Part shown: piece by piece, positions 832 to 21,168 of the stretch
How the letters are laid out: the number at the start of each line of letters is the position of its first letter
How positions within the stretch are numbered: position 1 is the stretch's first letter
Origin: a virus
DNA: 21,168 nucleotides
IMG/VR virus record: IMGVR_UViG_3300049215_000816
Span: 1 to 21,168 of that record
Direction: 5' to 3' (one strand)
Notes under the pieces: generated by a model
Database searches by the model: none
What the model was told of the DNA's origin: nothing
Seen by the model: only the letters and a program-made list of their open reading frames with translations
Translations under genes and position numbers: made by a program

Positions 832-1497
832 TCATAGGCGGCCGCCGACCCATAGCGCCCGGCCCAGCACGCTGACCTCCTCGGCCCTGACCGGATACGA
901 CTCGTAAGCCGGATTATCGCTGCGAATCAGAATCGAGCCGTCGGGCTGCCGTTGCAGCCGTTTGACCGCGAGATCGCTGCCAGTGCGCAACACATAGACG
1001 CCGTCGTGGCGAAAGCGCGTCTCGCGCGTATCGATCAGCACCACGTCGCCTTCATCAGCCGTCGGCGACATCGAATCTCCAATCACTTCGACCAGCGCGG
1101 TACCGCGCAAATCCAGGTTAAGCACGCGCTGCAACCATTCCGGCCGGAAGCTCAGATAATCCACAATTTGTTGATTCTGAATCGCCGCCCGGCCGACCGG
1201 CAACCGCAACACTGGCCGAGCTGCACCGCCGTCGTCGATGACTTCAGTTGGATGAACCTCGGTCCGGGCCTTGGTCGGAGCGCCGCGCCCGGTCGCCAGC
1301 CATTCGACCGAGACGCCTGCTGCCTTGGACAAATTCACCAGGCTCATCATGCTGGGCTGCCCGCGGCCGGAGACCCACTTGTAGATCGCGTTATCCGAGA
1401 CGCCCACAGCGCGCGCGAGATCGGCGACCGATCCGAACTGCTGCATGATCAGGCGTAGGCGGCGCCGGAATTCCTCGTCTACTAGTGTAGTTGACAT
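832..1497 (-). CDS. CI/LexA-type phage repressor (HTH + S24 peptidase fold)
   Basis: 221 residues. The N-terminal HTH (about 10-68) contains VADLARAVGVSDNAIYKWVSGRGQPS, split here as an HTH core at 25-40 and a GRGQPS wing at 44-49. The C-terminal S24/LexA-like domain (about 98-221) carries the nucleophile Ser142 in GDSMSPT and Lys179 in DLAVKRL, so the catalytic dyad is intact. I see no Ala-Gly or Cys-Gly pair in the linker (about 70-140), the usual self-cleavage bond, so classic RecA-triggered cleavage is uncertain. The start is supported by AGGAGA four bases upstream on the - strand. The gene is divergent from the early operon and faces an AT-rich intergenic region; this is the expected layout for a lysogeny repressor that controls the early promoter and itself. 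Confidence 0.9.
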   Translation of the reverse strand: MSTTLVDEEFRRRLRLIMQQFGSVADLARAVGVSDNAIYKWVSGRGQPSMMSLVNLSKAAGVSVEWLATGRGAPTKARTEVHPTEVIDDGGAARPVLRLPVGRAAIQNQQIVDYLSFRPEWLQRVLNLDLRGTALVEVIGDSMSPTADEGDVVLIDTRETRFRHDGVYVLRTGSDLAVKRLQRQPDGSILIRSDNPAYESYPVRAEEVSVLGRALWVGGRL

Positions 1498-2045: not shown

Positions 2046-2233
2046 AGGTAGCTCGCCCCCGCACCCACAAATGCGAATCGAAGCCAATCGCAGCCACGGC
2101 GGCGGCGCCATTTTCTTATCGCTGCACCCAGGTAACGGCCGCGAAATTGGCGCTCGCGACTGTGCCGCTTGAGCGCGGGCGCGACAGGGGGCCCTCAAGT
2201 GCTTCCTGGAGTGCCCTGCGGCACCTCAATTGA
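2042..2233 (+). CDS. Small early ORF coupled to the preceding one, unknown
   Basis: 63 residues from the ATG at 2042, which overlaps the upstream stop as ATGA. It is basic and Ala-rich with two cysteines (HKCESK and YRCTQV) and has no recognised motif. It ends 13 bases before the DnaA-like gene, and its stop codon abuts that gene's strong ribosome binding site. It has no ribosome binding site of its own, so translation would depend on coupling. Position and overlap are the only support. Confidence 0.3.
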   Translation: MKVARPRTHKCESKPIAATAAAPFSYRCTQVTAAKLALATVPLERGRDRGPSSASWSALRHLN

Positions 2234-2246
2234 AGGAGAAAGATCG

Positions 2247-2642
2247 ATGATTTCAGCCGGCTCCGCTCGCAGCATATCGATTCGCGAGGTCCAACGGACG
2301 GTCGCGCACGCCTTCAATCTGACCGTGGCCCAAATGCTCTCGTCCACTCGCGTTCAGCCCATCGCGAGTGCGCGCCAGATTGCGATGTACCTCAGCCGCG
2401 AGGTCGCCGCTCGCCGATCTTCTCCAGTTGACCGCGACGGTTTCCTCGAGATGCCTGCGCCGCCGTCGTTCCCACGTATCGGGATTGCCTTCGCCCGCAA
2501 TCATTCGAGCGTGATGTACGCCTGCCGCAAGGTCCGCCGCCGCCTCCGCGACGACCTCGCCTATGCCCTCCTGATCGATCGCCTCGCCACCGACGTGCGC
2601 GCGCACGCCACCCTCTCACCCGCCACCCAGGAGGCCGCATGA
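2247..2642 (+). CDS. Stand-alone DnaA domain IV-like DNA-binding protein
   Basis: 131 residues. Residues 10-52 match the first half of DnaA domain IV: a helix like IREVQRTVAHAFNL, then LSSTR and the ARQIAMYLSRE helix (42-52), which corresponds to the PRQMAM..AKE helix of bacterial DnaA. Residues 75-97 correspond to the signature IG..F.GRDHTTV.HA..KI, here IGIAFARNHSSVMYACRKV. About 15 residues are inserted between the halves. There is no AAA+ domain, so it cannot bind ATP or load helicase itself. Start 2247 is chosen over the upstream in-frame ATG (2169) because AAGGAGAA at 2233-2240 is well spaced. Its stop overlaps the next start (ATGA). It probably binds DnaA-box-like sites as a regulator or replication factor; this is inference. 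Confidence 0.8.
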   Translation: MISAGSARSISIREVQRTVAHAFNLTVAQMLSSTRVQPIASARQIAMYLSREVAARRSSPVDRDGFLEMPAPPSFPRIGIAFARNHSSVMYACRKVRRRLRDDLAYALLIDRLATDVRAHATLSPATQEAA

Positions 2643-3166
2643 TGGACCCCTATCGATCGCTGACCCGCCGGGTTTTAGCCACCTACGATGCCCGCAGCGG
2701 TATCGCTCCCAAGCGAGGTTTTCCGCGCAAGCCCGCTTCACCCTCTAGCCGCCCCAAGCCAGCGGCTGCGACTACCCCCGCGGTCCCCCGCACTTCCACC
2801 TTCGATCACCTCGCCGACCTGATTGGCAACGACGGCGCGACGCGCCTGGTTGCGGCCTTCGGCGGCACCCGCATCTATATTCCGCAAACCGCCGATCCCG
2901 ATGACGCGCTGAGCGCTTCCATCGGCTTTCCTGCCGCCACCGCGCTCGCCGAGATCTACGGCGGCGACCGTATCGAGATCCCCAATCCGACGCCCCGCCG
3001 CGTCCGTATCGTCGAGCTGCGCGCGAGCGGCCTCAGCATCGATGCGATCGCTCTCGCCCTCCACTGCACCCGCCGCCGCGTCTTCCAGGTGATGGCCGAG
3101 GCGCGCGCCGTCACCCTCCCTCCCGCGAGCGTTACGCGAAGAGTCCGCCATCGACCGGCACGCTGA
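2639..3166 (+). CDS. Mor/C-family-like late or middle transcription activator
   Basis: 175 residues (174 from the alternative ATG at 2642, which is better spaced from AGGAGG at 2629-2634). After a basic, Pro-rich N-terminal tail (1-52) comes a helical segment LADLIG..GATRLVAAF, then GGTRIYIP (75-82), a second GGDRIEIP (108-115), and a C-terminal helix-turn-helix (about 120-153, LRASGLSIDAIALALHCTRR). The GG.x.YIP beta-turn followed by an HTH is characteristic of the Mu Mor/C activator family. Its place at the end of the early operon, before the late genes, suits an activator of the middle/late promoters. Its last 35 bases overlap, tail to tail, the SDR gene on the other strand. The Mor assignment rests on motifs read by eye. 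Confidence 0.7.
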   Translation: MMDPYRSLTRRVLATYDARSGIAPKRGFPRKPASPSSRPKPAAATTPAVPRTSTFDHLADLIGNDGATRLVAAFGGTRIYIPQTADPDDALSASIGFPAATALAEIYGGDRIEIPNPTPRRVRIVELRASGLSIDAIALALHCTRRRVFQVMAEARAVTLPPASVTRRVRHRPAR

Positions 3167-3893
3167 CGCCCGTGATGTATGACGCCTGGTCCGAGCACAG
3201 CCACGCGACCGTCGCCGCGATCTCCCGCGGCGCCGCATAGCGCCGCATCGGCACGATCGCTTCGAAGTCCTTGCGCCCCGGCGCTCCTTCGTTGTTGGCG
3301 ATCCGTTCCATCATCGGCGTGTCCACCGGCCCCGGACACACCGCGTTCACGCGAATTCCCGCCTGCGCGCATTCCATCGCCGCCGATTTGGTCAGGCCCA
3401 CCACCGCATGCTTGCTCGCGACGTAAATCCCGAGGCCCGGAAACCCCTTCAGCCCTGCCACCGACGCGGTGTTCACGATCGCCCCGCCGCCCTGCTTGCG
3501 CATCTGCCGGATCTCGTACTTGAGGCACAGCCACACGCCCTTCACGTTCACTCCCATCACCCGGTCGAAGTTGCGATCGCTGGTGTCGTGCAATTCGATC
3601 ACGTCGCCCTCGATACCGGCGTTGTTGAACGCGCAATCCAGTCGCCCATGCGCGCTGACCACCCGCGCCACTAACGCCTGCACCGCGTTGCCGTCGGTGA
3701 CGTCCACTTGCACGAAGTCGGCCTTGCCCTTCGCCTCGCGAATTAGCGCGACGGTCTCCTCGCCCCCTTTCTGATCGACGTCCGCACACGTGACGATCGC
3801 GCCGTTGGCCGCAAACGCCAACGCGGTCGCGCGCCCGATCCCGCTGCTGCATCCGGTGATTAACGCTGACTTGCCCTCAAGCAGATTTGCCAT
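3132..3893 (-). CDS. SDR-family NAD(P)-dependent oxidoreductase (cargo)
   Basis: 253 residues, the normal length of a classical short-chain dehydrogenase. Rossmann motif TGCSSGIG (13-20), an Asp after beta-2 (D38 in CADVD, which favours NAD over NADP), DV at 64-65, NNAG at 90-93, and the tetrad Asn116, Ser144, Tyr157 and Lys161 (YVASK) are all present; PGPVDTP (187-193) and a C-terminal PVDGG follow. It is predicted to be a cytosolic active enzyme; the substrate cannot be read from sequence. Start supported by AAGGAGT on the - strand, about nine bases upstream. It lies between the phage activator and the lysis module on the opposite strand, the typical placement of a moron or lysogenic cargo gene. 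No phage role is evident. Confidence 0.93.
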   Translation of the reverse strand: MANLLEGKSALITGCSSGIGRATALAFAANGAIVTCADVDQKGGEETVALIREAKGKADFVQVDVTDGNAVQALVARVVSAHGRLDCAFNNAGIEGDVIELHDTSDRNFDRVMGVNVKGVWLCLKYEIRQMRKQGGGAIVNTASVAGLKGFPGLGIYVASKHAVVGLTKSAAMECAQAGIRVNAVCPGPVDTPMMERIANNEGAPGRKDFEAIVPMRRYAAPREIAATVAWLCSDQASYITGVSVPVDGGLFA

Positions 3894-6958: not shown

Positions 6959-7525
6959 GTGACCACAGCATTGACCATCTCGCCAAAAGGGAAACGTCCC
7001 CGCGGCGACATCCGGCGGCTGTCGCCGCAAGTGCGCGCGGAACTCGACGATCGGATCCTGAATCGTAAGTTCACCGGCTATCGCGATCTGAAGATATGGC
7101 TGCGCCAGAACGGATGCATGATCGCGACCACTTCCGTGAAGCGCTACGCCAACAAGCTCGAGCAACGACTCGGCGCGGTCAGACTCGCAACGGAACAGGC
7201 GCGCTTGGTGATCGACGCGGCGGCCGATGACGATATGGAGATCAATGAGGCCCTGTTGCGTCTCGTGCAGCAACATCTGTTCACGGTGCTAGTCGAATTG
7301 AACGGGGTGGATGCGACCAACGCGAACATCCCCGCGCTGGCGCGCAGCGTCAGCGCCCTCGCACGCGCCTCTATCGTGCAAAAGCAGTACATCGAAGAGA
7401 TGCGCGTGCGGATCATCGACAAAGTCGCCGCCGCCCAGCAGGCAGTTGAAACGGCTAAGGAGCGCGGGCTGACCGAGGCCGGAGCGGCGCAAATCAAAAA
7501 CGTCTTGCTGGAGATCACTGAGTAA
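6959..7525 (+). CDS. Small terminase subunit, DUF3486 (Mu gp27-like)
   Basis: 188 residues with a GTG start. Opening KGKRPRGDIRRLSPQVRAEL followed by helical DNA-recognition segment (IWLRQNGCMIATTSVKRYANKLE, about 47-69) and long helices to the C-terminus is the pattern of DUF3486, the Mu gp27 small terminase family. It should bind the packaging start and dock the large subunit. Gene order (winged-helix, this, large terminase) agrees. The start is tentative: TGAGGG lies very close upstream of the GTG, and TTG at 6971 is an alternative. Confidence 0.88.
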   Translation: MTTALTISPKGKRPRGDIRRLSPQVRAELDDRILNRKFTGYRDLKIWLRQNGCMIATTSVKRYANKLEQRLGAVRLATEQARLVIDAAADDDMEINEALLRLVQQHLFTVLVELNGVDATNANIPALARSVSALARASIVQKQYIEEMRVRIIDKVAAAQQAVETAKERGLTEAGAAQIKNVLLEITE

Positions 7526-7549: not shown

Positions 7550-9112
7550 ATGGTCACAGAAGCAAATCAGGCGAGTGAGCATCGCAAGGACGTACTACTG
7601 CCCTACCAGGTTCGCTGGATGGCCGACGAGTCGCCGATCAAGATCGCGGAGAAATCGCGGCGTGTCGGACTGACCTGGACCGAGGCTGCCGCGAGTGCGC
7701 TCTCGGCGTCCGCGATCAAGGGTATGGATACTTGGTACCTCGGTTACAACCAGGATATGGCGCGCGAATTCGTCGAGACCGCGGCCGCCTGGGCGCTGCA
7801 ATTCAACAAGGCGGCGAAGGCGATCGAGGAGATCGCGATCGACGACGAGCGGCGCGCGTTGCTCGCCTACCGCATCCGCTTCAGCTCAGGCCACAAGATC
7901 ATCGCGCTGTCCTCGCGGCCCTCCAATCTGCGCGGCAAGCAAGGTCGCGCGGTGATCGACGAGGCCGCCTTTCACGACGATTTGAAGGGCCTGCTGAAGG
8001 CCGCACTCGCCTTCACGATGTGGGGCGGATGCGTCCGCGTCATGTCCACCCACAACGGCGCGAATAGTGCTTTCAATGAACTAGTCAATGAGATCCGCGC
8101 CGGCCGCAAGCCATACTCACTTCATCGCGTGACCTTCGACGATGCGGTGGCCGACGGCTTGTACTATCGCATCTGCAGCAAGCTCGGGCGCAAGTGGTCG
8201 AGCGCCGCCGAGAGCGAATGGCGCGCGCAGATTTTCGCCGAATACGGCGAAGACGCCGAAGAGGAGTTACTCTGCATCCCGCGCGCGTCGGGCGGCGCTT
8301 ATCTCTCGTCGGTGCTGATCGAAGGCCGCATGAAGGAAGGCATCCCGGTCATTCGATGGGAACTGCCGGAAGACTTTGCGCGACGTCCGGAAAGCGAACG
8401 CACCCGCGTTGCGCAGGAGTTTTGCGCGGAACAGATAGCGCCGCATCTGCAGACGCTCGATAGCTCGGCCCGGTCCTTTCTGGGTGAGGATTTTGGCCGG
8501 TCCGGCGACTTGACGGTCATCTGGCCGCTGCAGCTAAGGGGTAATACCTTGCGCCGCACTCCCTTCGTTATCGAGTTGCGCAACATACCGTTTCGGCAAC
8601 AGGAACAGGTGCTGTTCTACGTCGCCGATCGCCTGCCCCATTTCGCCGCGGGCGCGATGGATGCGCGCGGCAACGGACAGTATCTCGCGGAAACCGCGAT
8701 GCAACGGTACGGCAGCCGGATCCAGCAAGTGATGCTTTCCAACGAGTGGTATCGCGACCACATGCCGCGCTACAAGGCGGCGTTCGAGGACGGCATGATC
8801 GAGTTGCCGCGCGACGCCGATATTCTCGCCGACCATCGCGCGTTGGTGATGGAACAAGGCGTGGTGCGCATTCCGGATCGGCGCAGCACCGCGGTTGATG
8901 GCAAGCGGCGGCATGGCGATGCGGCGATCGCCGGCGCACTCGCCTACTTCGCGAGCCAGGTTGAGGTCGCCGAAATCAACTATCAGCCGGCGCCGCGCGT
9001 GCGGCATTTCGACACCGTCAGCCGGGAAGGAATGCGCAAACGCCCCGAGCCGGAGGTGGAAACACGCAGTGCGCGCCGGGGACGCTTTGGCGCGCACGCC
9101 GGCGCGTGGTGA
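7550..9112 (+). CDS. Large terminase subunit (Mu gp28-like)
   Basis: 520 residues, full length for the family. ATPase half: Walker A-like KSRRVGLTW (35-43), Walker B AVIDEAA (134-140, D137/E138) and coupling motif STHNG (166-170). RNase H-like nuclease half: acidic residues in GEDFGRSGD (about D314), MDARGNG (D371) and HGDAA (D457). It is the motor that pumps DNA into the prohead and cuts it. The C-terminal 45 residues are Arg-rich and probably disordered. AGGAGGG at 7534-7540 fixes the ATG at 7550. It lies directly after the small subunit gene. Confidence 0.96.
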   Translation: MVTEANQASEHRKDVLLPYQVRWMADESPIKIAEKSRRVGLTWTEAAASALSASAIKGMDTWYLGYNQDMAREFVETAAAWALQFNKAAKAIEEIAIDDERRALLAYRIRFSSGHKIIALSSRPSNLRGKQGRAVIDEAAFHDDLKGLLKAALAFTMWGGCVRVMSTHNGANSAFNELVNEIRAGRKPYSLHRVTFDDAVADGLYYRICSKLGRKWSSAAESEWRAQIFAEYGEDAEEELLCIPRASGGAYLSSVLIEGRMKEGIPVIRWELPEDFARRPESERTRVAQEFCAEQIAPHLQTLDSSARSFLGEDFGRSGDLTVIWPLQLRGNTLRRTPFVIELRNIPFRQQEQVLFYVADRLPHFAAGAMDARGNGQYLAETAMQRYGSRIQQVMLSNEWYRDHMPRYKAAFEDGMIELPRDADILADHRALVMEQGVVRIPDRRSTAVDGKRRHGDAAIAGALAYFASQVEVAEINYQPAPRVRHFDTVSREGMRKRPEPEVETRSARRGRFGAHAGAW

Positions 9113-9345: not shown

Positions 9346-10938
9346 ATGACACTTTACGATGCGTACGGCCGGTTAGTGGATACCGCGCGGCTTCGCGACG
9401 AACAGGCGGCGCCGACCATGACCGGCGTGCGGAATATATACTCCGTGATGCATCCGAGCGTGGGGCTGACGCCGGAGAAGCTCGCCGCGGTACTGCGGCA
9501 GGCCGAATTCGGCGACCCTTATCTTTATCTCGAACTGGCCGAGGAAATGGAGGAGAAAGACCTCCATTACCTGGCCGTGCTGGGTACGCGCAAACAGACG
9601 ATTGCCGGACTGCAAATCTCAGTGCGGCCCGCTTCAAGCGAAGCCGCCGACGTGCGTAACGCCGACCTGGTGCGCGATCTGCTCCTCGGCGGAACGCTCG
9701 ACCTCGCGGATACTCTGTTCGACATCCTCGACGCCATCGGCAAGGGTTTTTCCGCGACTGAGATCATCTGGGACACTTCGGGTCGCGAATGGATGCCGGT
9801 GCGGCTCCTGTGGCGCGACCCGCGATGGTTCGCGTTCGATTGCGTAAGCGGCGAACAGTTACTAGTGCGGACGCTCGGCGACGATAGTCAGTACCCGTCC
9901 GCATCGGACGGCGCCGGCGGTAGCCACTTCGAGCGCGCAGGCACTGGCTATCCCGGCGCCAGCCGCGGCCACGGACCCTGCGGATCGGCCCAGAGGGGCA
10001 CCGGTGGCCATTCCGAACAGGGGCACGCCGGTTATCCAGCCGCTCACGCCAGCGAGCTCAATCGATCGAGCCAACGCGGCGGCGGTGGCCATTCCGAACG
10101 GGGGCACGCCGGTTATCCCGGCACTCACGCCAGCGGACCGAGTGGATGGGCCGGCTGGAACGGAGCCTCGCGCGCCTCTGTCGAGACCTTCCTCCAGCCG
10201 ATGACCGCGCCGCTCGAACCCTTCAAATTCATCGTCCATTGCTCGAAAGCCAAATCCGGACTGCCTATTCGCGGCGGCCTCGCGCGCGCGGCCGGCTGGT
10301 CCTACCTCTTCAAGAACTACGTGCTGAAGGACTGGATAACCTTCGCCGAAGTATTCGGCCAACCCTTGCGACTGGGCAAGTACGGCGCGGGCGCAACCGA
10401 AGCCGACAAACAGGCATTGCTGAGCGCCGTCGCGAATATCGGCACCGATGCAGCCGCGATCATCCCCGACTCAATGATCATCGAATTCACCGAGGCGCGC
10501 CAAAGCGGCAGCGCTGAATTGTACGAACGCTTTTGCGAATACCTCGATCGCCAGGTCAGCAAAGCCGTCCTCGGCCAAACCCTCACGACCGAATTGCCGC
10601 GCGGCTCCGGCTCCCGCGCCGCAGCCCAGGTGCATGACGCCGTGCGCCGCGACATCCTCGCGTCCGACGCGCGCCGCCTGGGCGACACCCTCACCCGCGA
10701 TCTGATCAAACCAATCGTGGACCTCAACACCGGACCGCAACGCCGCTACCCAACCGTCGCGCTGGTCCTCCCAAACGATCAAGACGACGAGGAATTCGCC
10801 GGCATCCTCTCACAGCTTATCGATCGCGGTCTGCGCGTTAGTCAAAAGACAGTGCTCGATCGCCTCGACCTACCTGCGACCGCCGTCGACGAAGCCGTTC
10901 TGCATCCGCTAGGGACGCCGGCCGGCGACGAGGATTAA
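9346..10938 (+). CDS. Portal protein, DUF935 (Mu gp29-like), with repeat insertion
   Basis: 530 residues. DUF935 features: N-terminal segment through LTPEKLAAVLRQAEFGDP (41-58), YLELAEEMEEKDLHYLAVLGTRK (61-83), GFSATEIIWD (134-143), LLWRDPRWFAFD (154-165), and after the insertion LEPFKFIVH (290-298), GGLARAAGWSYLFKNY (310-325) and FAEVFGQPLRLGKY (333-346). It forms the dodecameric DNA gate at the capsid vertex. Residues about 184-280 are a Gly/His/Ser-rich insertion between two normally adjacent segments, with three degenerate repeats of 27-28 residues. GGAG six bases upstream supports the ATG. The next gene is the protease; no MuF-type minor head gene follows. Confidence 0.95.
   Translation: MTLYDAYGRLVDTARLRDEQAAPTMTGVRNIYSVMHPSVGLTPEKLAAVLRQAEFGDPYLYLELAEEMEEKDLHYLAVLGTRKQTIAGLQISVRPASSEAADVRNADLVRDLLLGGTLDLADTLFDILDAIGKGFSATEIIWDTSGREWMPVRLLWRDPRWFAFDCVSGEQLLVRTLGDDSQYPSASDGAGGSHFERAGTGYPGASRGHGPCGSAQRGTGGHSEQGHAGYPAAHASELNRSSQRGGGGHSERGHAGYPGTHASGPSGWAGWNGASRASVETFLQPMTAPLEPFKFIVHCSKAKSGLPIRGGLARAAGWSYLFKNYVLKDWITFAEVFGQPLRLGKYGAGATEADKQALLSAVANIGTDAAAIIPDSMIIEFTEARQSGSAELYERFCEYLDRQVSKAVLGQTLTTELPRGSGSRAAAQVHDAVRRDILASDARRLGDTLTRDLIKPIVDLNTGPQRRYPTVALVLPNDQDDEEFAGILSQLIDRGLRVSQKTVLDRLDLPATAVDEAVLHPLGTPAGDED
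9919..10136 (+). repeat. Three degenerate tandem repeats inside the portal gene
   Basis: Repeat units start at 9919, 10003 and 10084 (84- and 81-base periods, both multiples of three). They encode GGSHFERAGTGYPGAS, GGHSEQGHAGYPAAHAS and GGHSERGHAGYPGTHAS. The last two are nearly identical at DNA level (for example GGTGGCCATTCCGAAC in both), pointing to recent duplication that kept the frame. Confidence 0.8.
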
Positions 10939-11016: not shown

Positions 11017-11058
11017 GTGAAATATTTCACCCTTATGGCGCACCCTCGAAAATGTCAC
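11017..11058 (+). promoter_or_regulatory. Conserved palindromic promoter element, copy 2
   Basis: GTGAAATATTTCAC (11017-11030) is a perfect 14-bp palindrome followed by CCTTAT, matching the copy at 4180. It follows an AT-rich patch (10968-11016) containing the -10-like hexamer TATACT (10987-10992), in a 113-base gap between portal and protease genes. It marks the head of the capsid/tail transcription unit. Confidence 0.65.
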
Positions 11059-12245
11059 ACTCGCCTCCGATGAACACTAGCAACAACACACAGACACCTC
11101 AGGGAGCAATTGCTAATGAACTCGGCGTCACCGGAACCATTATCAGCGAATATAGTTCGGCTCCGGAATGGATCGAGTTGTTGCCGGCGGGAGATTTCGC
11201 GGGACGCGATGGACGCGGACCATTCCGGCTATCCAATCCCGCAGCAGTAGTCACCGCTACCGTCGGATTACGGATGGACGCAGGCCTGCCGATTGACTAT
11301 GACCACGCGACTGATTTTGCGGCGCCATCGGGACGTCCGGCACCAGCGGCAGGATGGATCCGGGCGATCGAGGTGCGCGACGGCGCGCTGTGGGGAAGGG
11401 TCGAATGGACCGGTCATGGCAGGGCCGCAGTGGTGACGCGAGAGTATCGTTATATCTCGCCGGTTTTCGAATACTCAGAGGATGGCGAAGTGCAACGGTT
11501 GCTGCGCGCGGCGCTCACGAACAATCCTAATTTGTATTTGACTGCGATCTCGGCGCGCGCCGCCCGTGGCGAGTCCGTATTCCCGAAAGTGTCAGCGCAT
11601 CAGCATGCGGGGGCCGCGCAAGATCGCTCGCAAGCACACGGGTCGGAGGACGGCCTGGCGTCACAACTGCGCGCGATACTGGGACTCGAAAACGAATCGA
11701 ATCCCGAAGAAATCGTGGCGGAAGTGAGCAGAGTGATCGCAGAGCGACGAGGCGGCAATCCAGCGGAAACAGGCACACCGTCGGCTTTCGAGTTACATTC
11801 GGCCGCTGGCGGAAGCGTCGGGGACCCGGCGCGATACGTGCCGATTGAGCAATTCGAAAACATATTGACGGAGCTCAACCAGTTGCGTGCGACCAGCTCT
11901 CGCGAGCGAGCAAGCTTTCGGGTGGATGCGGCGATGAAGGCGGGCAAGATCGTGCCGGCGCAACGCGAATGGGCGATCGCATACTGCCAGGCAAACCTGG
12001 ACGGCTTCGAGGAATTCGTCGCACGCCAACCGGCGATGGTGACTGGAGTGAGTATCGGCTTCGAGGGCGAACCTGCGGCCGCGCGCATCGGTATCGGCGA
12101 TCGGCAGCACGAGGGCCTCGAGAGCCGTGGCCCGGGCACCAGGCTGACGCGCACGGAACTGGCGGTATGTGCGAGGCTCGGGCTTAGACCGAATGACTAT
12201 TTGCAGCGACGCAACGCCCGTGACGAACTATCGATGCCAAGTTAG
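11052..12245 (+). CDS. Head maturation protease / scaffold (Mu gpI-like)
   Basis: 397 residues. The protease domain (about 25-170) carries DYDH (82-85), GWIRAIEVRDGALWG, EWT and YRYISPVFEY (132-141) with the candidate nucleophile Ser136 and His85, then LTNNPNL (155-161): all hallmarks of Mu-type prohead protease I. The C-terminal part (about 200-397) is charged and helical, as expected for the overlapping scaffold region, including AMKAGKIVPAQREWA and a terminal LRPNDYLQ. It should cut scaffold and head proteins during maturation. No Shine-Dalgarno is visible before 11052 or before the alternative ATG at 11070; the transcript may be leaderless or nearly so, given the promoter-like element just upstream. 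Confidence 0.9.
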   Translation: MSHSPPMNTSNNTQTPQGAIANELGVTGTIISEYSSAPEWIELLPAGDFAGRDGRGPFRLSNPAAVVTATVGLRMDAGLPIDYDHATDFAAPSGRPAPAAGWIRAIEVRDGALWGRVEWTGHGRAAVVTREYRYISPVFEYSEDGEVQRLLRAALTNNPNLYLTAISARAARGESVFPKVSAHQHAGAAQDRSQAHGSEDGLASQLRAILGLENESNPEEIVAEVSRVIAERRGGNPAETGTPSAFELHSAAGGSVGDPARYVPIEQFENILTELNQLRATSSRERASFRVDAAMKAGKIVPAQREWAIAYCQANLDGFEEFVARQPAMVTGVSIGFEGEPAAARIGIGDRQHEGLESRGPGTRLTRTELAVCARLGLRPNDYLQRRNARDELSMPS

Positions 12246-13158: not shown

Positions 13159-14115
13159 ATGGAAATAACGACTGCCAATCTAACTGCATTGTTCACGGGG
13201 TTCGACGTAATCTTCCAGCGCGGCTTTGACAAGCCGCCATCCTATTACGAGAAGATCGCAACCGTTGTGCGATCGGCTTCTCGTCAAACTACATACCCGT
13301 GGCTAGGTCGAACCACGAAATTTCGTGAGTGGCTGGACGAGCGTGTAATCCAGGCGCTCGAAGCGCACAGCTATACGATCACGAACAAGGATTTCGAAGA
13401 CACCATCAGCATCAGCCGCAACGACATCGAAGATGACAACTACGGTGTGTACGAGCCGGTGATCGAGCAGCTCGGCTGGGATACGAAGGTCCATCCGGAC
13501 TCACTACTGTTCTCGATGATCAAGAACGCAGTGACGACACCCTCGAGCGTACTAAGTTTCGATGGGCAACCGTTCTTCTCCGCGACTCATCCAGTAGGGC
13601 CCCTGGGGGCGGCGAACGACGCGCGGGACACGGTAGCGTCAAATGTAAACAGCTCGGGTTCCGGACCGTATTGGTATCTGCTCGATGCGTCGCGAGCGGT
13701 GCGCCCGTTCATTTTTCAGCTCCGGCGCGAATACGCGATGACGCGTATGAACACGCTGACCGACGAGGCCGTATTTACACGGCGCGAGTTTCGCTTCGGG
13801 GTGGACGGGCGAGCCAACACGGGGGTGGGTCTCTGGCAACTTGCATACGCCAGCAACACCGATCTGAGCGTACCCTCGAACTATGGCGCGGCGCGCGCGG
13901 CGATGCGGTCGATAAAGACTGACGCGGGGTTACCGTTTGGCGCACTGACCAGTCCGAACGACATCTACCTGCTGGTGCCGCCGGCGCTCGAGGAAGTCGG
14001 AGCGCAATTGTTACATTCGGACTTTATGGTGGGTATCGGCGCAAGCTCGAGCGTGACGACGGGAAATATCTGGAAGAGCACCGCTACGCTGATCGTGAGT
14101 GAGTATTTGTCCTAA
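13159..14115 (+). CDS. Major capsid protein (Mu gpT-like)
   Basis: 318 residues, close to Mu T. It opens TTANLTALFTGFDVIFQRGF, with YPWLGRTTKFREWLDERVIQ (46-65), the NKDFEDTISISRNDIEDDNYG region (76-96), SFDGQPFFSATHP (132-144) and PPALEEVGAQLL (274-285), all familiar from the Mu-like major head subunit (HK97-fold) family. It follows the cement gene as expected. AGGGA lies a few bases before the ATG. It forms the icosahedral shell. Confidence 0.95.
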   Translation: MEITTANLTALFTGFDVIFQRGFDKPPSYYEKIATVVRSASRQTTYPWLGRTTKFREWLDERVIQALEAHSYTITNKDFEDTISISRNDIEDDNYGVYEPVIEQLGWDTKVHPDSLLFSMIKNAVTTPSSVLSFDGQPFFSATHPVGPLGAANDARDTVASNVNSSGSGPYWYLLDASRAVRPFIFQLRREYAMTRMNTLTDEAVFTRREFRFGVDGRANTGVGLWQLAYASNTDLSVPSNYGAARAAMRSIKTDAGLPFGALTSPNDIYLLVPPALEEVGAQLLHSDFMVGIGASSSVTTGNIWKSTATLIVSEYLS

Positions 14116-14226: not shown

Positions 14227-14685
14227 GTGCACTACGCATCGCCGAACGACATGATAGCCAGATATCCGAATCGAGATCTGGTGCAACTGAGTAATGAAGA
14301 CCCGACGCAAACGACGGTGAATCTGACAACTCTGGGCCAGGCGCTCGACGATGCGTCAGCGGAAATTGACGGCTATATCGAGAGCCGCTTCGTCCTGCCG
14401 CTCAGCGACCCACCGACCGTTCTCAACCGGATCGCATGCGATATCGCAATGTACCGGCTGCAATCGCTGCGACCGCTGCACGACCTCGCCGACCCGCGAA
14501 AACGCTACGAGGACGCGGTTGAACTGCTGGTTCGAGTGGCGCGCGGAGAAGTCACCCTCGGGCTCGGAACAGACGATGCAGAACCGCCGGCGGCTCCGGG
14601 TTCAGTCGTGACCGAAGCAGGCGGTCAGGCGGGCGGCGAAGTACCACAGCGGATTTTCAGTCGGGGAACGCTCAAGAGTTATTGA
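14227..14685 (+). CDS. Head-tail connector, DUF1320 (Mu gp36-like)
   Basis: 152 residues with a GTG start preceded by AGGTGG (14213-14218). YASPNDMIARYPNRDLVQLS followed by LGQALDDASAEIDGYIESRF (36-55) and DIAMYRLQSLRP.HDLADPRKRYEDAVELL is the DUF1320/gp36 signature. Residues beyond 110 are a Gly/Pro-rich tail ending in a short conserved-looking RIFSRGTLKSY. This family completes the head at the neck. It lies directly after the capsid gene, as in Mu. Confidence 0.9.
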   Translation: MHYASPNDMIARYPNRDLVQLSNEDPTQTTVNLTTLGQALDDASAEIDGYIESRFVLPLSDPPTVLNRIACDIAMYRLQSLRPLHDLADPRKRYEDAVELLVRVARGEVTLGLGTDDAEPPAAPGSVVTEAGGQAGGEVPQRIFSRGTLKSY

Positions 14686-15000: not shown

Positions 15001-15837
15001 ATGGGAGCAACACTCGATAGTCCGTGGGTCGGACAGGAATTTACGCCACCGAGTCCGCTCGATATCGGGACGATCGAAACGGCATTGGTCAACCAGTTAG
15101 TCGCACAGATCAGCGAGATCGAAATAGTTCATTTTCCAGACAAGCCCGAAGCGTATCGAATGACGCACCGCATTGGTTCGGCGCTGGTGCGCTATGAAGG
15201 TGCGGAATACGGCGAGGTAATCGATATCGCGGCGATTGTGCAGGAACGTACGCTCAAGTTTGAAGTTACATTGATGATGCGAGACCTGGGTTGGAGCTTC
15301 GGAGGGCCGGCGAGTGGTACGGACCCGGGAGCGTACGCGATGATCGAGGCCGTGCGCGGCGCGCTAACCGGGTTTCGAGTTCCAGGATGTGACAGGACGT
15401 ATCCGCTTCGTGAGCGGTTTATCAAACGCGACAAGCAGGGTGGCGTCTGGGTTTACGCGATTAGCTTCGCGTTGCGGACGGCGGCGGTGGAAGCCTCGGC
15501 GCCAAACAATTACCCGCTGTTCCTGCTTGGCATCGCCCAAGAACAAGGTGGCGTCACTTCAGTTACTGTCGCCCCGGCTTCATACCAATTCAATCCGAGC
15601 GACCAGATCAATCTTTCACATGGAAATATCTCGGCGCTATTGATTACGAATCCGGACAATGGCGCCGCATACATCAGTGGGGACGATTACACACTCGATG
15701 CGGTCAACGGGATTGTCCTGCGAAATCCAGCTGGTGCGATTGATCCGGGCACGCTGGTTAACGCCGGATTCACCTACGGGGAGGTGGTGACCGCGATCGC
15801 AGACGGGGGTGGCATTCCGACTGCACCAACCAACTGA
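15001..15837 (+). CDS. Tail completion protein, DUF1834 (Mu gp37-like) plus beta module
   Basis: 278 residues; the family is usually near 180-200. Residues 20-165 show the DUF1834 pattern: IGTIETALVNQLVAQI, HFPDKPEAYRMTH, GSALVRYEGAEYG, VQERTLKFEVTLMMRDLGW, MIEAVRGALTGFRVPGC and GGVWVYAISFALR. Residues 201-261 form an added C-terminal module (INLSHGNIS, TNPDNGAAYISGDDYTLDA, then GAIDPG and FTYG), clearly related to a segment of the tail sheath encoded next and to the cement protein. The base family finishes the tail-head junction; the extra module's role is unknown. The start follows AGGA at good distance. Its TGA is three bases before a tiny ORF. Confidence 0.88.
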   Translation: MGATLDSPWVGQEFTPPSPLDIGTIETALVNQLVAQISEIEIVHFPDKPEAYRMTHRIGSALVRYEGAEYGEVIDIAAIVQERTLKFEVTLMMRDLGWSFGGPASGTDPGAYAMIEAVRGALTGFRVPGCDRTYPLRERFIKRDKQGGVWVYAISFALRTAAVEASAPNNYPLFLLGIAQEQGGVTSVTVAPASYQFNPSDQINLSHGNISALLITNPDNGAAYISGDDYTLDAVNGIVLRNPAGAIDPGTLVNAGFTYGEVVTAIADGGGIPTAPTN

Positions 15838-16029: not shown

Positions 16030-17784
16030 ATGCCAGCATCCTTCCTGCACGGAGTAGAAGTAATAGAGCTCGTCACGGGCCCGGCACCGATAACTGTGGT
16101 CAAATCGTCGGTAATCGGACTGGTAGGAACGGCGCCTTGTTGGGCAGTATCAGCAGGGACAACCGCGGCGGGAATAAACGCGCCAACACTGGTGAGCTCG
16201 CCGCAAGACGCCGTGCAATTTGGCCCGGCGGTGCAAGGATATACGATCCCCTACGCACTGAGGGCAATTCTTGGACAAGGCGCGGGGCAGGCGGTCGTAG
16301 TCAATGTCTTCAACCTCAGCAAGCACACCAGCGATATAGTCGCGTCACCAACATTCAGCGCGGCCGGCGCAATCAATCTCGGCCACATGGGTGTTACGAA
16401 CCTGTCGGTGATGCCGACGACGACGGCACCAGTCACAGCGGAGTCGCATAGCTTCGGCGGCACCCCGGCAACGATACAACTGGCGCACGGCAACGTGCAG
16501 GGTTCGTCGATAGTACTAACGAGTAATCCCATCGGCACCACCTATGTCCAGGAAACGGACTATCTGGCGGACAGCCGTACAGGCTTGATAACTCGAGTAA
16601 CGGGAGGGGCAATCGGCGCCACCGCGGCGGTATTGGCAAACTATACTTACTATTCGGGGACGGCATATAGCGCGGTTCATGATTACGCCACCGATTCAGT
16701 CAACGGGATCGTTACGCTCATCGCCGGCAGTACCATAGCGGCGGGGTCAACGGTGGCCGTCTCATTCAGTTACGCCGACCCGACTAAAGTGCAGGACTCA
16801 GACATAATCGGGGCCGTGACCGGTTCCGGATATTCAGGCTTGCAGGCTTTTCTGACGACTTACGGCACCATGGGCTTCTTCCCGAAATTGATGCTAGCGC
16901 CCGGTTACTCGCAAAATGGCGATGTCGCCAGCGCATTGCAGGCTACCGCCGCCACGCTGCGGGGAATGGCGCTCATCGATTCGCCGCCAAACACTTCTGC
17001 CGCAACGGCAATCGCGAACCGCGGGCTACCGGGTAATGCGTTCGACACGAGTTCGACACGCGCGATCTTGTGCTATCCGCAAGAGACCTTCTATGACGAC
17101 GGGCTAGTCCCGACAGGCGTGACCCTAAACGGCACCAGCCCGATACAGTTGGTCGCGAACCAAACAGCAGTAGGGCCATACTCACCATGGGTGGCTGGTG
17201 CGATAGCGTTGAAAGACCTTAACCAAGGCTACTGGTGGTCGCCCTCCAATACTCAAATAAACGGAATCCTCGGGCCTGATGTGACGCTCTACGCATCGCT
17301 ACTGGACGCGGCATCCGATGTTAACAACCTCAACTCGGCCGGGATCGTAACTGTGTTTAATGCGTTCGGCACCGGGCTCCGCGTTTGGGGTAACCGTTCC
17401 GCTGGATACCCAACCGTAACCACCCCGGACAACTTCATCAATGTGCGCCGAACGATGGATGTAATTGAAGAGTCAGTTGAATTGTCGATGCTGCAATTCA
17501 TCGATAAGCCAATCAGCAACGCTCTGATCACGGCAATCCTGGCAAGCGTAAACTCATTTATCCGAACGTTGATCCAGCGCGGAGCGCTCGTGGCGGGCTC
17601 TGCGAGTTACAGTCCCGCAGAGAATCCTCCCAACCAAGTCGCCGCGGGGCAACTAGTATTCGATATCGACGTCATGCCGCCGCCGCCCGCTGAGCGTCTG
17701 AGCTTCAACGTTTACATTGACAGTACACTGCTGACGCAACTCGGCACCTCAAGCCCGTTGACGAGTACGGCACTGACTGCATAG
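16030..17784 (+). CDS. FI: Contractile tail sheath protein (P2 FI / Mu L-type)
   Basis: 584 residues. N-terminal HGVEVIELVTGPAPITVVKS (7-26) and VIGLVGTAP (28-36) are the universal sheath start. The C-terminal half shows NRGLPGNAFDTSS, GPYSPWVAGAIALKD, GYWWSPSN.QINGILGPD, and the end region FINVRRTMDVIEESVELSM through NAFIRTL-like NSFIRTLIQRGAL, with a conserved FDIDVMPPPPAERLSFNVYI. Residues about 147-249 insert two beta modules in tandem (IQLAHGNVQ..TYVQETDYLADSRTG..; HDYATDSVNG..STVAVSFSYADP) before the normal DIIGAV. Sheath subunits contract to drive the tube into the host. AGAGGTGA before the ATG supports the start. Confidence 0.95.
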   Translation: MPASFLHGVEVIELVTGPAPITVVKSSVIGLVGTAPCWAVSAGTTAAGINAPTLVSSPQDAVQFGPAVQGYTIPYALRAILGQGAGQAVVVNVFNLSKHTSDIVASPTFSAAGAINLGHMGVTNLSVMPTTTAPVTAESHSFGGTPATIQLAHGNVQGSSIVLTSNPIGTTYVQETDYLADSRTGLITRVTGGAIGATAAVLANYTYYSGTAYSAVHDYATDSVNGIVTLIAGSTIAAGSTVAVSFSYADPTKVQDSDIIGAVTGSGYSGLQAFLTTYGTMGFFPKLMLAPGYSQNGDVASALQATAATLRGMALIDSPPNTSAATAIANRGLPGNAFDTSSTRAILCYPQETFYDDGLVPTGVTLNGTSPIQLVANQTAVGPYSPWVAGAIALKDLNQGYWWSPSNTQINGILGPDVTLYASLLDAASDVNNLNSAGIVTVFNAFGTGLRVWGNRSAGYPTVTTPDNFINVRRTMDVIEESVELSMLQFIDKPISNALITAILASVNSFIRTLIQRGALVAGSASYSPAENPPNQVAAGQLVFDIDVMPPPPAERLSFNVYIDSTLLTQLGTSSPLTSTALTA

Positions 17785-17849: not shown

Positions 17850-18368
17850 ATGGACATCTCGGTAAATCGAATAACCAACGCGAACATTTACATGGACGGT
17901 ATCGGCCTACTGGGACGAGCTGAAGAAATCCAGGTCGCTCAACCGCATCATCGAATGGCGGACCACAAGGCCCTGGGAATGGCCGGTACCGCGGAATTCT
18001 GGGCTGGCGTGGAGAAGCTCGAAGCCAAGATTAAATGGGCGTCGCTGTACCCTGAAGTCCTGGCAGCGGCGGGGAGCCCATTCGTATCGCATTCATTTCA
18101 GGTACGTGGAAGTCTCGACCAATACACAAGTCAAGGCCGGAGCGCGCAATTGCCGGTGGTGTATCTAATGACGGGCGTATTCAAGGACGCCGGTGCCTTC
18201 ACGTTCAAACAGCATGAAAATGTAGATACGACTTCAACGATAACCGCATATCACACAGAATTGTACATCGCCGGTAACCAGATTCACCTATACGACGTGC
18301 TCGCAAATATATACGTCGTGAACGGAGTGGACCAACTCGCTCAGTTTCGGGCCAACCTGGGAGGCTAA
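17850..18368 (+). CDS. FII: Tail tube protein (P2 FII-like)
   Basis: 172 residues, same size as P2 FII. NRITNANIYMDGIGLLGRAE resembles the FII start (N.FNDG..Y.G), ADHKALGMAGTAEFWAGVEK resembles the R.LE.Y.GGGM.G segment, and the ending IYVVNGVDQLAQFRANLGG matches FII's end (EIVNGVDRLAKARAALG) almost residue for residue. It forms the inner tube within the sheath. AAGGA about nine bases before the ATG. It is the strongest single sign that the tail is P2-type. Confidence 0.95.
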   Translation: MDISVNRITNANIYMDGIGLLGRAEEIQVAQPHHRMADHKALGMAGTAEFWAGVEKLEAKIKWASLYPEVLAAAGSPFVSHSFQVRGSLDQYTSQGRSAQLPVVYLMTGVFKDAGAFTFKQHENVDTTSTITAYHTELYIAGNQIHLYDVLANIYVVNGVDQLAQFRANLGG

Positions 18369-18420: not shown

Positions 18421-18780
18421 ATGACTGAAGACCGAAAGACGATCGTACTGCCGTCGGGAAAACTAGGAGAGGTGCGCAAGGGTAAAGGCCGCGACCTGAT
18501 GCGGGCACATCGCGCCTCTGCGGGCAATCCGGAACCAATGTCGGTGTCGTTTGCGCTAATTGCCGAATTGGCTCGTGTGGACGGGAGCGCGCTGGTGTAC
18601 GAAGACGTTCTCGAGATGGATCTTAACGATGTACTGACACTCGAAGCGGAGATCATGGGGGTAGGCGAGAGCCGCGCAAATTTTCAGAACACCGCGGCGC
18701 CGCGAGAGGAGCCAACGGGCCGATCGGAGCCGCGGCAATCACCGGACTCATCGCCTTCGGATTCTCCTTCACAGAACTGA
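18421..18780 (+). CDS. E: Tail assembly chaperone, short form (P2 E-like)
   Basis: 119 residues. RKTIVLPSGKLGEVRKGKGR (5-24), DLMRAHRASAG, SFALIAELARVDG and VYEDVLEMDLNDVLTLEAEI are typical of the short tail assembly protein found between tube and tape measure in P2-like tails. After residue 88 the zero-frame tail (QNTAAPREEPTGRSEP...) is low complexity, whereas the -1 frame carries the conserved-looking extension, so the short form probably ends in filler. GGAGTGAG at about 18407 gives a good start. It should coat the tape measure during tube assembly. Confidence 0.9.
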   Translation: MTEDRKTIVLPSGKLGEVRKGKGRDLMRAHRASAGNPEPMSVSFALIAELARVDGSALVYEDVLEMDLNDVLTLEAEIMGVGESRANFQNTAAPREEPTGRSEPRQSPDSSPSDSPSQN

Positions 18781-18869
18781 AAATAATGGACATCGGGGAA
18801 CTTGCATATTGGGCGAGAGCGAAGACCGAATACCTTGCTCTTTTGCAAGTGAACAACACTAAGGAATGA
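18421..18869 (+). CDS. Tail assembly chaperone, -1 frameshift fusion (E+E'-like)
   Basis: Predicted second product of the same start codon: residues 1-88 in the zero frame, then a -1 slip on A AAT TTT (18678-18684) and 61 residues in the -1 frame to TGA at 18867-18869, 149 residues in all. The extension ends with FGFSFTELKIMDIGELAYWA and RAKTEYLALLQ, which fits the pattern of E'-type extensions (short aromatic/acidic helix, 'EL..W...a'). The -1 frame is open from 18627. In P2 and lambda the fusion is made at a low fixed ratio and links the chaperone to the tape measure; the ratio here is unknown. Confidence 0.8.
18678..18704 (+). promoter_or_regulatory. Programmed -1 ribosomal frameshift signal
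   Basis: Slippery heptamer A AAT TTT (18678-18684) lies in the correct phase (X XXY YYZ) relative to the zero frame GCA AAT TTT CAG. Eight bases later begins the 12-bp palindrome CGCGGCGCCGCG (18693-18704), which can fold as a CGCG/CGCG stem with a GCGC loop at the usual distance for a stimulator. Confidence 0.75.
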
Positions 18870-18899
18870 CGGCACGATCGGCTTAGCGTGGAGCGATAT

Positions 18900-19184
18900 A
18901 TGAGCAGACGCGTATACGCGGGAAATCTCAGTTTCGAGATGAATGACTTACTATTGCGAGAAACCTTCGCACGAGTCGGGGGAGTGGAGGCGGCCGAAGT
19001 AGTCAAAGACCGGTGGACAGGAATATCGCGAGGCTTTGGCTTCGTGGAAATGATAACGATCGAGGATGCTGAAACCGCGGTGAATGAATTGAACGGCATC
19101 GAAGTAATGGGACGAATGTTGCGAGTCGCACTAGCGAAGCCTCGTTGGGCCGCGGCCACAGTCGAGAGCCGCAGCCGCCAATAA
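18900..19184 (+). CDS. RRM-domain RNA-binding protein
   Basis: 94 residues from the ATG at 18900 (GGAG at 18890-18893, six-base spacer); a GTG at 18888 is less likely. It is one complete RRM: RNP2 RVYAGNL (4-10), RNP1 RGFGFVEM (44-51), and the rest of the beta-alpha-beta-beta-alpha-beta fold ending RMLRVALAKPR. The RNA-stacking aromatics Tyr6, Phe46 and Phe48 are kept, so it should bind single-stranded RNA. It resembles the small single-RRM proteins of bacteria, and is not a usual phage tail gene. It starts 30 bases after the frameshifted chaperone stop and ends 8 bases before the tape measure, so it is transcribed with the tail genes. Confidence 0.92.
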   Translation: MSRRVYAGNLSFEMNDLLLRETFARVGGVEAAEVVKDRWTGISRGFGFVEMITIEDAETAVNELNGIEVMGRMLRVALAKPRWAAATVESRSRQ

Positions 19185-19192
19185 GTTGTGCC

Positions 19193-20446
19193 GTGAGTAC
19201 CGAACGACAGCGCAACCATCGCGCACCAAGCGGGGAAGTAGCTGGGAAGTCGCGTATCCGACTGGCCGAGCGAGATCGACTCGGTGACATCGTTTCTTCT
19301 ATCCGGATGATGGGCGCGGCGACTGCGAAGCTACTCACCCTGAGGACATCGAAAGCCCTCGAACTGGCCGAGTTGCCGGCTCCGTCAACACCCTATGAAA
19401 ATAATAACCACCGCGTTGATCGCATGGCCGAGCATGACACCCTCGCGACAGGCCGACGGCAACTCTCTTTCCTCCGGGAGACTGCGAACAGGAAGGACTA
19501 TGCCGACCTGGACGATATCTCGACCAAGACAGCGCGATTGACGGCGCTATTTCTCGCCACCACGTCGATTTTGCCGACGGCGTCGCGAGCTGCTACTGAA
19601 CTCTCACTGATTGAAGCCCGAAGACGTTCCAGCACAATGCCCGCGCTCGCTACCGCACTTGGGTCCCGCTTGATACATGTCGAGGCGATCCCCGTTTCAC
19701 GCGCGAACAAGATTCCGTCGCCGGAGTTTAAAGACACCTTATCCACGACGAAGCGACAAACGACTGACTACCTCGCATCGATGGTTGCGTCGTTCAACGC
19801 GCACGCTCGCTATTCGAGACCTGCACACGCGAGCAATCGTCATTTTCATTCAGTGTCCAGCGAGATCTTGCAAACCCGTGGGGCCAAGCTCGGTTCACTC
19901 GAGCAACCCGGCCGAAAACATACGTCCTTCCTCACTATCGCGGCAAGGAACCAGAGCAGCTACCGTTCAGCGCATCGTGCTTCCAAGGTCGGGATAATGA
20001 AAGCTTCCGACTCCCGATTTGCCGACACAATCAATCGTGCAGCTTACTTTGGCGAACGCGCCATCGCCAGGAGACTTATCGCGGCTAACTCTCTACATGA
20101 CCAGTTAGATCGAACCGGGAATCCCTGGCTGCCTTCCGTCGCCCTACCACGAATTAATTCTGATAATGCCGAAATCCTGAAATTGGGAGAGCAATGGTCA
20201 CCATTTCACCGACCCACACTGGCCCAACCGCCGCACCTCCGTGGTTTTACCGTCCGATCACCGGCGGTCCCGAATAAACCTAAATCTCCCATTGTTCTGA
20301 ATTTTTCGCCCACCGTGGTTGTTCCAGGCGACTCTGCGGTTGGCGATATCACAGACGCTGTGATGCAAGCTATCAGACGACAAAGTCACGAGCTTATCCA
20401 GATTATCAAGCGGGAAATAGGAACGCGGAAACGCGCACGTTTCTAG
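19193..20446 (+). CDS. Short tail tape measure protein
   Basis: 417 residues from the GTG at 19193 (8 bases after the RRM stop; ribosome binding site weak, longer in-frame start at 19145 would overlap the RRM gene). Mostly helical, Ala/Arg/Ser-rich, without recognised domains until the end: SPIVLNFSPTVVVPGDSAVG followed by ITDAVMQAIRRQSHELIQII and KREIGTRKRARF. That 'P.I.I.fsPtv..aD..DI..A...alR.H..EL...I.rE..rr.R..F' tail is typical of P2-like tape measures. Position after the E/E' chaperone and before gpU agrees. Such proteins usually have 600-1000 or more residues and hydrophobic segments; I see none here. Confidence 0.8.
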   Translation: MSTERQRNHRAPSGEVAGKSRIRLAERDRLGDIVSSIRMMGAATAKLLTLRTSKALELAELPAPSTPYENNNHRVDRMAEHDTLATGRRQLSFLRETANRKDYADLDDISTKTARLTALFLATTSILPTASRAATELSLIEARRRSSTMPALATALGSRLIHVEAIPVSRANKIPSPEFKDTLSTTKRQTTDYLASMVASFNAHARYSRPAHASNRHFHSVSSEILQTRGAKLGSLEQPGRKHTSFLTIAARNQSSYRSAHRASKVGIMKASDSRFADTINRAAYFGERAIARRLIAANSLHDQLDRTGNPWLPSVALPRINSDNAEILKLGEQWSPFHRPTLAQPPHLRGFTVRSPAVPNKPKSPIVLNFSPTVVVPGDSAVGDITDAVMQAIRRQSHELIQIIKREIGTRKRARF

Positions 20447-20517: not shown

Positions 20518-21168
20518 ATGTTTGCAGTATTTGGTGAAATTGTATTCGACCTTTTGAATGCTCCAGAAGATTTCGAGTCAACGCGTTCATGGGATTACGC
20601 GGAGCAACGAGTGGTGGAGGACCGTCCAAAGCTCCAGTGGATCGCGACTGGCCTCGAGATAATCGAACTGGATTTTCAATTTCACGCTTCATTCACCGAC
20701 CCGGCGTCCCAAGTGGAAGCGCTGATTGCTGCAGCGAATGACCATAGCGCGCGTCCATTGATATTCGGAAATGGTGTCCATCGAGGTTACTTCATCGTTA
20801 TGTCACTTCGTATGTCATCGCGGATGACGGCGGCGGATGGCAGCTTGATATCAATCACGGTGAGAGCCGTGCTGAAGGAATGGGCGGCGGGTTCTGAAAT
20901 AACGGCTACGGTGAGTCCGTTTGCCGAGTTTCCGCTGATCGGGATCGTGACTGCCTTACCAGGAGCCAGTACCAGCTCGCTTACATTTTCAGAGCCCGCC
21001 GGCGTGAGCGACGTGCCGAACGCGCCGACGACGCCGTATGTACCTCCATCGCTGGCGTCTCCAGGAGTGTCGCCTCTGCTCAATATTCCGAGTGTTGGTG
21101 GATTGCCAACGCCCCAGTTGACCTTCGGCGATGTGATCCCGAGTGCGATCGTGAGAGCAGCGCCTTAA
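20518..21168 (+). CDS. U: P2 gpU-like tail protein
   Basis: 216 residues. Residues 1-125 fit gpU: MFAVFGEIVFDLLNAPEDFE, YAEQRVVEDRPKLQWIATGL, LDFQFHASFTDPASQVEALI, ARPLIFGNGVHRGYFIVMSL, then TAADGSLISITVRAVLKEW. The remaining 90 residues are a Pro/Ser/Gly-rich extension. gpU completes the tail tube in P2-like phages, and U following the tape measure is the P2 order. The stop is the last codon of the window, so later tail genes (X, D, baseplate) would lie beyond. No clear Shine-Dalgarno close to the ATG; AAGAGAG is about 20 bases upstream. Confidence 0.93.
   Translation: MFAVFGEIVFDLLNAPEDFESTRSWDYAEQRVVEDRPKLQWIATGLEIIELDFQFHASFTDPASQVEALIAAANDHSARPLIFGNGVHRGYFIVMSLRMSSRMTAADGSLISITVRAVLKEWAAGSEITATVSPFAEFPLIGIVTALPGASTSSLTFSEPAGVSDVPNAPTTPYVPPSLASPGVSPLLNIPSVGGLPTPQLTFGDVIPSAIVRAAP

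Follow-up and report, generated by a model that had tools for sequence, protein, structure and literature searches.

The single-RRM proteins of bacteria are modestly specific in the RNA they bind (PMC9313427), and those of cyanobacteria have a role in stress tolerance (PMC9333190). The protein described below resembles the cyanobacterial Rbp1/2/3 (PMC9333190) and AB-Elavl of A. baumannii (PMC9313427) in having one RRM of about 80–95 residues with RNP1 and RNP2 motifs; unlike these, it is encoded in a tail operon and belongs to a clade of its own, apart from the cellular RRMs. The cluster that contains it resembles a P2-type tail operon (FI-FII-E/E'-T-U-X-D) coupled to a Mu-type head in its gene order, its -1 frameshift at E/E' and its protein families. 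It differs from the P2-type operon in that an RRM gene lies between E' and T, host genes are present inside it, and its T is short, fast-evolving and sometimes moved. Finally, like the gene transfer agents (GTAs; viriforms, PMC9662315), it consists of Caudoviricete-derived genes that are chromosomal, apparently vertically inherited and under purifying selection, whereas it departs from the known GTAs in being a contractile Mu/P2-type module of Binatota, in including an RRM gene and in being known from genes alone. No paper on a gene transfer agent of the uncultured phylum Binatota was found in the literature searched.

The window, i.e. the whole stretch of DNA that was analyzed, is an IMG/VR record of 21,168 bases with the following features:

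832..1497, - strand: S24/CI-type repressor (Pfam Peptidase_S24, HTH_3), place and strand kept in Binatia genomes
2169..2642, + strand: DnaA domain IV-like protein (Pfam Bac_DnaA_C, 5e-19)
2639..3166, + strand: Mor-like activator (Pfam Mor, 1.2e-6)
3132..3893, - strand: host-type SDR dehydrogenase (Pfam adh_short_C2, 5e-69)
6959..7525, + strand: Mu Gp27, small terminase type (Pfam, 1.1e-30)
7550..9112, + strand: large terminase (phrog_2, 3.9e-35)
9346..10938, + strand: portal, Mu type (Pfam Portal_Mu, 1.6e-102)
11052..12245, + strand: head protease, Mu I type (Pfam Mu-like_Pro, 6e-66)
13159..14115, + strand: major head subunit, Mu gpT type (Pfam Mu-like_gpT, 1.2e-92)
14227..14685, + strand: Mu Gp36 (Pfam, 1.5e-33)
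15001..15837, + strand: Gp37 protein (Pfam Gp37, 1.3e-30)
16030..17784, + strand: contractile tail sheath (Pfam Phage_sheath_1, phrog_23)
17850..18368, + strand: tail tube FII (Pfam Phage_tube, 7e-40)
18421..18780, + strand: tail assembly chaperone E, gpG/E type (phrog_21320, a family without assigned function, 2.5e-22; position after the tube; homologues)
18678..18684, + strand: -1 slippery heptamer A AAT TTT (in-frame A AAT TTY in nearly all relatives with or without the RRM)
18627..18869, + strand: E' open frame in -1 (stop 18867–18869; E' segment conserved in relatives)
18900..19184, + strand: RRM gene (Pfam RRM_1, 7.2e-18; fold; conservation, dN/dS 0.05–0.10)
19192..20446, + strand: tape-measure-type T (GTG 19192, frame open from 19145; order E'-RRM-T-U; conserved C-terminal motif)
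20518..21168, + strand: tail protein gpU, P2 type (Pfam Phage_P2_GpU, 9e-24)

The slippery heptamer and the open E' frame that mark a P2-type chaperone pair are both found here. Exactly 30 nt separate the E' stop from the ATG of the RRM gene, and T and then gpU follow downstream; the position after the frameshift product and before the tape measure had thus been read correctly in the earlier note. The RRM gene runs from the ATG at 18900 to a TAA at 19182–19184 and is preceded, 6 nt upstream, by a Shine-Dalgarno GGAG (18890–18893) that has similar counterparts in the related contigs L002, L008, L013, L014 and L016; a longer reading from the GTG at 18888 is possible and less favoured. The gene is on the same strand as the tail operon and shows no promoter or terminator of its own above background: the counts of promoter-like sites (1, versus 1.3 expected from shuffling) and terminator-like sites (1, versus 2.3) are unremarkable, and none flanks the gene on its strand, the promoter scan having used a sigma-70 consensus that may not fit a Binatia host.

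The neighboring T protein is short (~300–520 aa) and fast-evolving (dN/dS ~0.5), that of the window being ~47% identical to its L002 counterpart (dN/dS 0.55). In some lineages no T is found beside E', yet a T-like C-terminus occurs elsewhere in the genome or cluster. The idea that T-less lineages are devoid of a tape measure is weakened by such C-terminal matches in G1155, G1156 and G012; "T-less" here concerns the local site only, and the fragments G010 and G011 lie outside this evidence.

The product of 18900–19184 is confirmed as a canonical single RRM of 94 residues, complete and with the RNP1/RNP2 aromatics that had been seen in it earlier. It matches Pfam RRM_1 with an E-value of 7.2e-18 (64.7 bits, cut-off 20.7), and many solved RRMs are matched in phmmer searches. 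Its RNP2 reads V-Y-A-G-N-L and its RNP1 R-G-F-G-F-V-E-M, with M instead of F/Y at the eighth position; the RNA-stacking aromatics Y6, F46 and F48 are Y or F in ~98–100% of 48 relatives. The AlphaFold model has the order β1-α1-β2-β3-α2-β4, with pLDDT values of 91–96 over residues 1–80 (~95 in the core), and its closest PDB folds by Foldseek are RNA-binding RRMs such as HuR RRM1 (TM 0.80/0.89) and hnRNP A18. The protein is predicted to bind RNA through its RNP1/RNP2 sheet. Its location proved as unusual as had been supposed: there is no RRM match in 50,697 deposited phage records at an E-value of 1e-5, and a PHROG search of the protein gave no match.

The gene recurs at this place in the sister contig L002, with 84 of 94 residues identical and a dN/dS of ~0.09, and this puts the reading frame far beyond chance. 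When viral contigs were scanned with the tube only, a query that is blind to the presence of the RRM and hence unbiased, 80 loci were recovered, 62 of them readable at the site, and the RRM is present in 51 of these 62; an RRM-based scan brought up a further subclade, of larger size, whose members carry the gene at this position too. Candidatus Binatus soli carries an in-clade tube, and a tube match was obtained in 28 of the 148 genomes of its class (Binatia), mostly fragmented MAGs. Nineteen of the 28 have the RRM, four are in-clade and do not, two are cut and three are distant and RRM-less, so that the gene is found in 19 of the 23 readable in-clade genomes. The one-off insertion contemplated in the earlier note, which no related phage would keep, is therefore contradicted. 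The RRM is absent from distant relatives (tube ≤63%) and from known phages. Within the clade it has been lost cleanly a few times, several lineages keeping the same gene set without it and the RRM-less relatives showing no pseudogene remnants, which indicates that it is dispensable in some lineages. As candidate hosts, the Acidobacteriota (a guess from L211) and the Pseudomonadota (from L168) were rejected, there being no in-clade tube in 297 and 398 genomes of these phyla, respectively.

Other viral contigs with RRM matches (L079, L096, L112, L114–L116, L118, L119, L122, L123 and L125–L133) show no match to the tail genes of the Binatia cluster. Some of these RRM genes reside on very long viral contigs of 152–482 kb (L096, at 482 kb, L119, L126 and L133), with no tail cluster nearby. 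The more distant L326 (G996) and L027 have no E, E' or T between tube and U; a conserved ORF of ~100–127 aa is found there instead.

The tail-operon RRMs form one clade (SH-aLRT 99) when compared with 80 cellular and 14 other viral RRMs, the latter being placed among the cellular ones, and the clade is kept (SH-aLRT 96) upon addition of 20 more cellular Binatia RRMs; the phylogeny against bacterial RRMs that had been proposed thus sets them apart. These trees derive from short alignments, with deeper branching unsupported, and do not single out a donor among host genes. RRM and tube distances are strongly correlated over 48 distinct pairs (Mantel r = 0.94, permutation maximum 0.32), also within the two subclades (0.73 and 0.92). 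To explain where the RRM is present or absent, 7 changes are required on the tube tree; taken with the fact that the RRMs form a single clade, this is best interpreted as one gain and several losses. By simple NG86 pair counts, its dN/dS is 0.09 against L002 and 0.10 and 0.05 in comparisons among the Binatia genomes G706, G955 and G910. A single acquisition followed by vertical inheritance and a few clean losses would best fit these observations, and it is well supported that this is a bacterial-kind single-RRM protein, acquired once by an ancestor with a Mu-type head and P2-type tail and kept in the late (tail) operon. It is probably a captured cellular-type gene; cellular relatives are up to 57% identical among the matches listed, and closer ones may exist. 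RRM genes occur in 142 of the 148 Binatia genomes, commonly in 3–8 copies; single-RRM proteins thus appear to have expanded in this bacterial class. Given these multiple copies in many genomes, a host gene is a possible donor.

The cluster as a whole appears to be chromosome-resident and vertically inherited in Binatia, soil bacteria of the phylum Candidatus Binatota. It is embedded in Binatia contigs of 64–480 kb, and a search of the cluster contigs of nine genomes for tyrosine integrases and rve transposases gave none in its vicinity. In three species (G706, G955 and G910) it lies in the same syntenic 60 kb, flanked by purA, serA, an aminotransferase gene and leuS, all identified by eye. The dS values of most cluster genes (0.09–0.36) resemble those of most neighbors (0.09–0.30). 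G1125 and G1129 have a flank in common with the murF side of G706 (flank genes again named by eye), and other groups show common flanks in G1134 with G1131, G1139 with G1140, and G1150 with G1148. The synteny and dS parity are strong signs of mostly vertical inheritance in the three species, and the common flanks elsewhere agree with it; co-diversification with the host over the class as a whole is a possibility. The cluster occurs at at least four different loci, which implies relocation or some horizontal movement as well. The nearest chromosomal relative of the window is G1134, where the S24 repressor and SDR genes lie at matching places. GTAs are described as having Caudoviricete-derived structural proteins and as being fully endogenised (PMC9662315), and the cluster shows the former and, judging from its long contigs and the lack of a nearby integrase or transposase, the latter. 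A domesticated GTA-like element, known here from genes alone, fits better than an active phage.

Several further observations concern this element. The tubes of the IMG/VR "virus" contigs L087, L098, L238 and L243 are identical to those of the Binatia chromosomes G706, G910, G1139 and G1150, which implies that resident clusters get listed as viruses. The host-type genes within the cluster comprise an ABC ATPase, a repeat protein and the SDR. The SDR gene of the window (3132–3893, - strand) is intact and separates the Mor-like regulator from the late genes; its homologue in G1134 is 88% identical, occupies the same place and has an endolysin-like gene next to it. In one group of clusters, genes for a divergent ABC-transporter ATPase and a long NHL/SBBP-type repeat protein split portal/TerL from the protease (L323, 32–3325; G008, 17198–21174; G010, 20766–24797). 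G008 also has a partial tandem duplicate of the 5' part of TerL (26676–28835) beside the full gene.

With respect to function, the RRM protein would be made together with the tail proteins from one polycistronic mRNA, would bind single-stranded RNA through its RNP1/RNP2 sheet, and would act in trans as a post-transcriptional regulator or RNA chaperone, the simplest target being the long late mRNA of the cluster, at the level of its stability or translation. We give a probability of about 0.4 to this reading, in which a host-type RRM was acquired once and resides in the late operon as a trans regulator or RNA chaperone of late mRNA. A function tied to the cluster is favoured because the RRM is fixed in the late operon and inherited with it. 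Speaking against a late-mRNA role, no obvious conserved target in cis is present between E' and the RRM gene; a candidate RNA element there was rejected as neither a conserved column pattern nor a consensus fold was detected.

The main rival target is host RNA: instead of acting on the mRNA of the cluster, the protein might, for instance, remodel the use of host mRNAs or shield transcripts while particles are made or the cell is under stress. The bacterial single RRMs discriminate rather little between RNAs (PMC9313427) and help cyanobacteria to tolerate stress (PMC9333190), the 3–8 RRM genes of many Binatia genomes suggest that RRM biology is important in the host, and the gene is retained when its tail neighbors leave. 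As the fixation in the late operon and joint inheritance run counter to it, we regard this alternative as somewhat unlikely, although a role on host RNA, or one in the particle, would give a sequence pattern identical to that of the late-mRNA role. That the gene is an ordinary moron, a passenger of an active temperate phage with no role in the cluster, is improbable. The part of this earlier proposal that stands is the cellular-type gene, probably captured, within a phage-like operon, and its absence by loss in some lineages would also agree with a passenger; the part that does not is a transcription unit of its own, as no promoter (by the sigma-70 consensus, with the above caveat as to the host) or terminator rises above the shuffled background. 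The single origin, long vertical retention and strong purifying selection, and the residence of the element in the chromosome with no integrase nearby, likewise argue against it. It is a little more improbable still that the RRM is a particle component or assembly factor, whose ligand would be a nucleic acid or a protein of the tail or of the packaged content: it is encoded among tail genes and co-inherited with them, but several in-clade lineages have the same gene set without it, and no contractile tail is known to have an RRM part.

The modulation of the E/E' -1 frameshift ratio, which the earlier note had put forward, is very improbable, even though the gene lies so close behind E' and an RNA-binding protein could act on the E/E' overlap, since the co-occurrence of heptamer, E, E', T and RRM across relatives rejects it as the main role, and no conserved RNA element is seen near the site. 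E' is always in the -1 frame in relatives, and A AAT TTT/C is conserved irrespective of the RRM, including in the RRM-less loci L019, L236, L239, L242, L243, L251, L279, L280, L282, L283 and L270; conversely, L093 and L124 have lost the heptamer and kept the RRM. L281 keeps its RRM gene in place, with the tube gene on one side and U on the other; E, E' and T no longer lie there, and a T-like gene is found at 2118–3362, between MCP and gp36 (L281/G012). From these three loci it follows that the RRM is kept independently of the frameshift and the T neighborhood, and a switch for the E/E' frameshift is disfavoured.

Although the phage records searched contain no counterpart, an RRM gene appears to have persisted here in a tail operon while a bacterial class diversified, and this ties the little-understood bacterial RRM proteins to a small and well-defined group of mRNAs as candidate targets. 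The cluster also suggests that a phage-like element has been domesticated in the uncultured phylum Binatota. More speculatively, and on balance doubtful, the Binatia may have an undescribed contractile GTA or other domesticated phage-like particle of the Mu/P2 type, the production of which would be controlled at the RNA level by a eukaryote-like RRM encoded in its own late operon.
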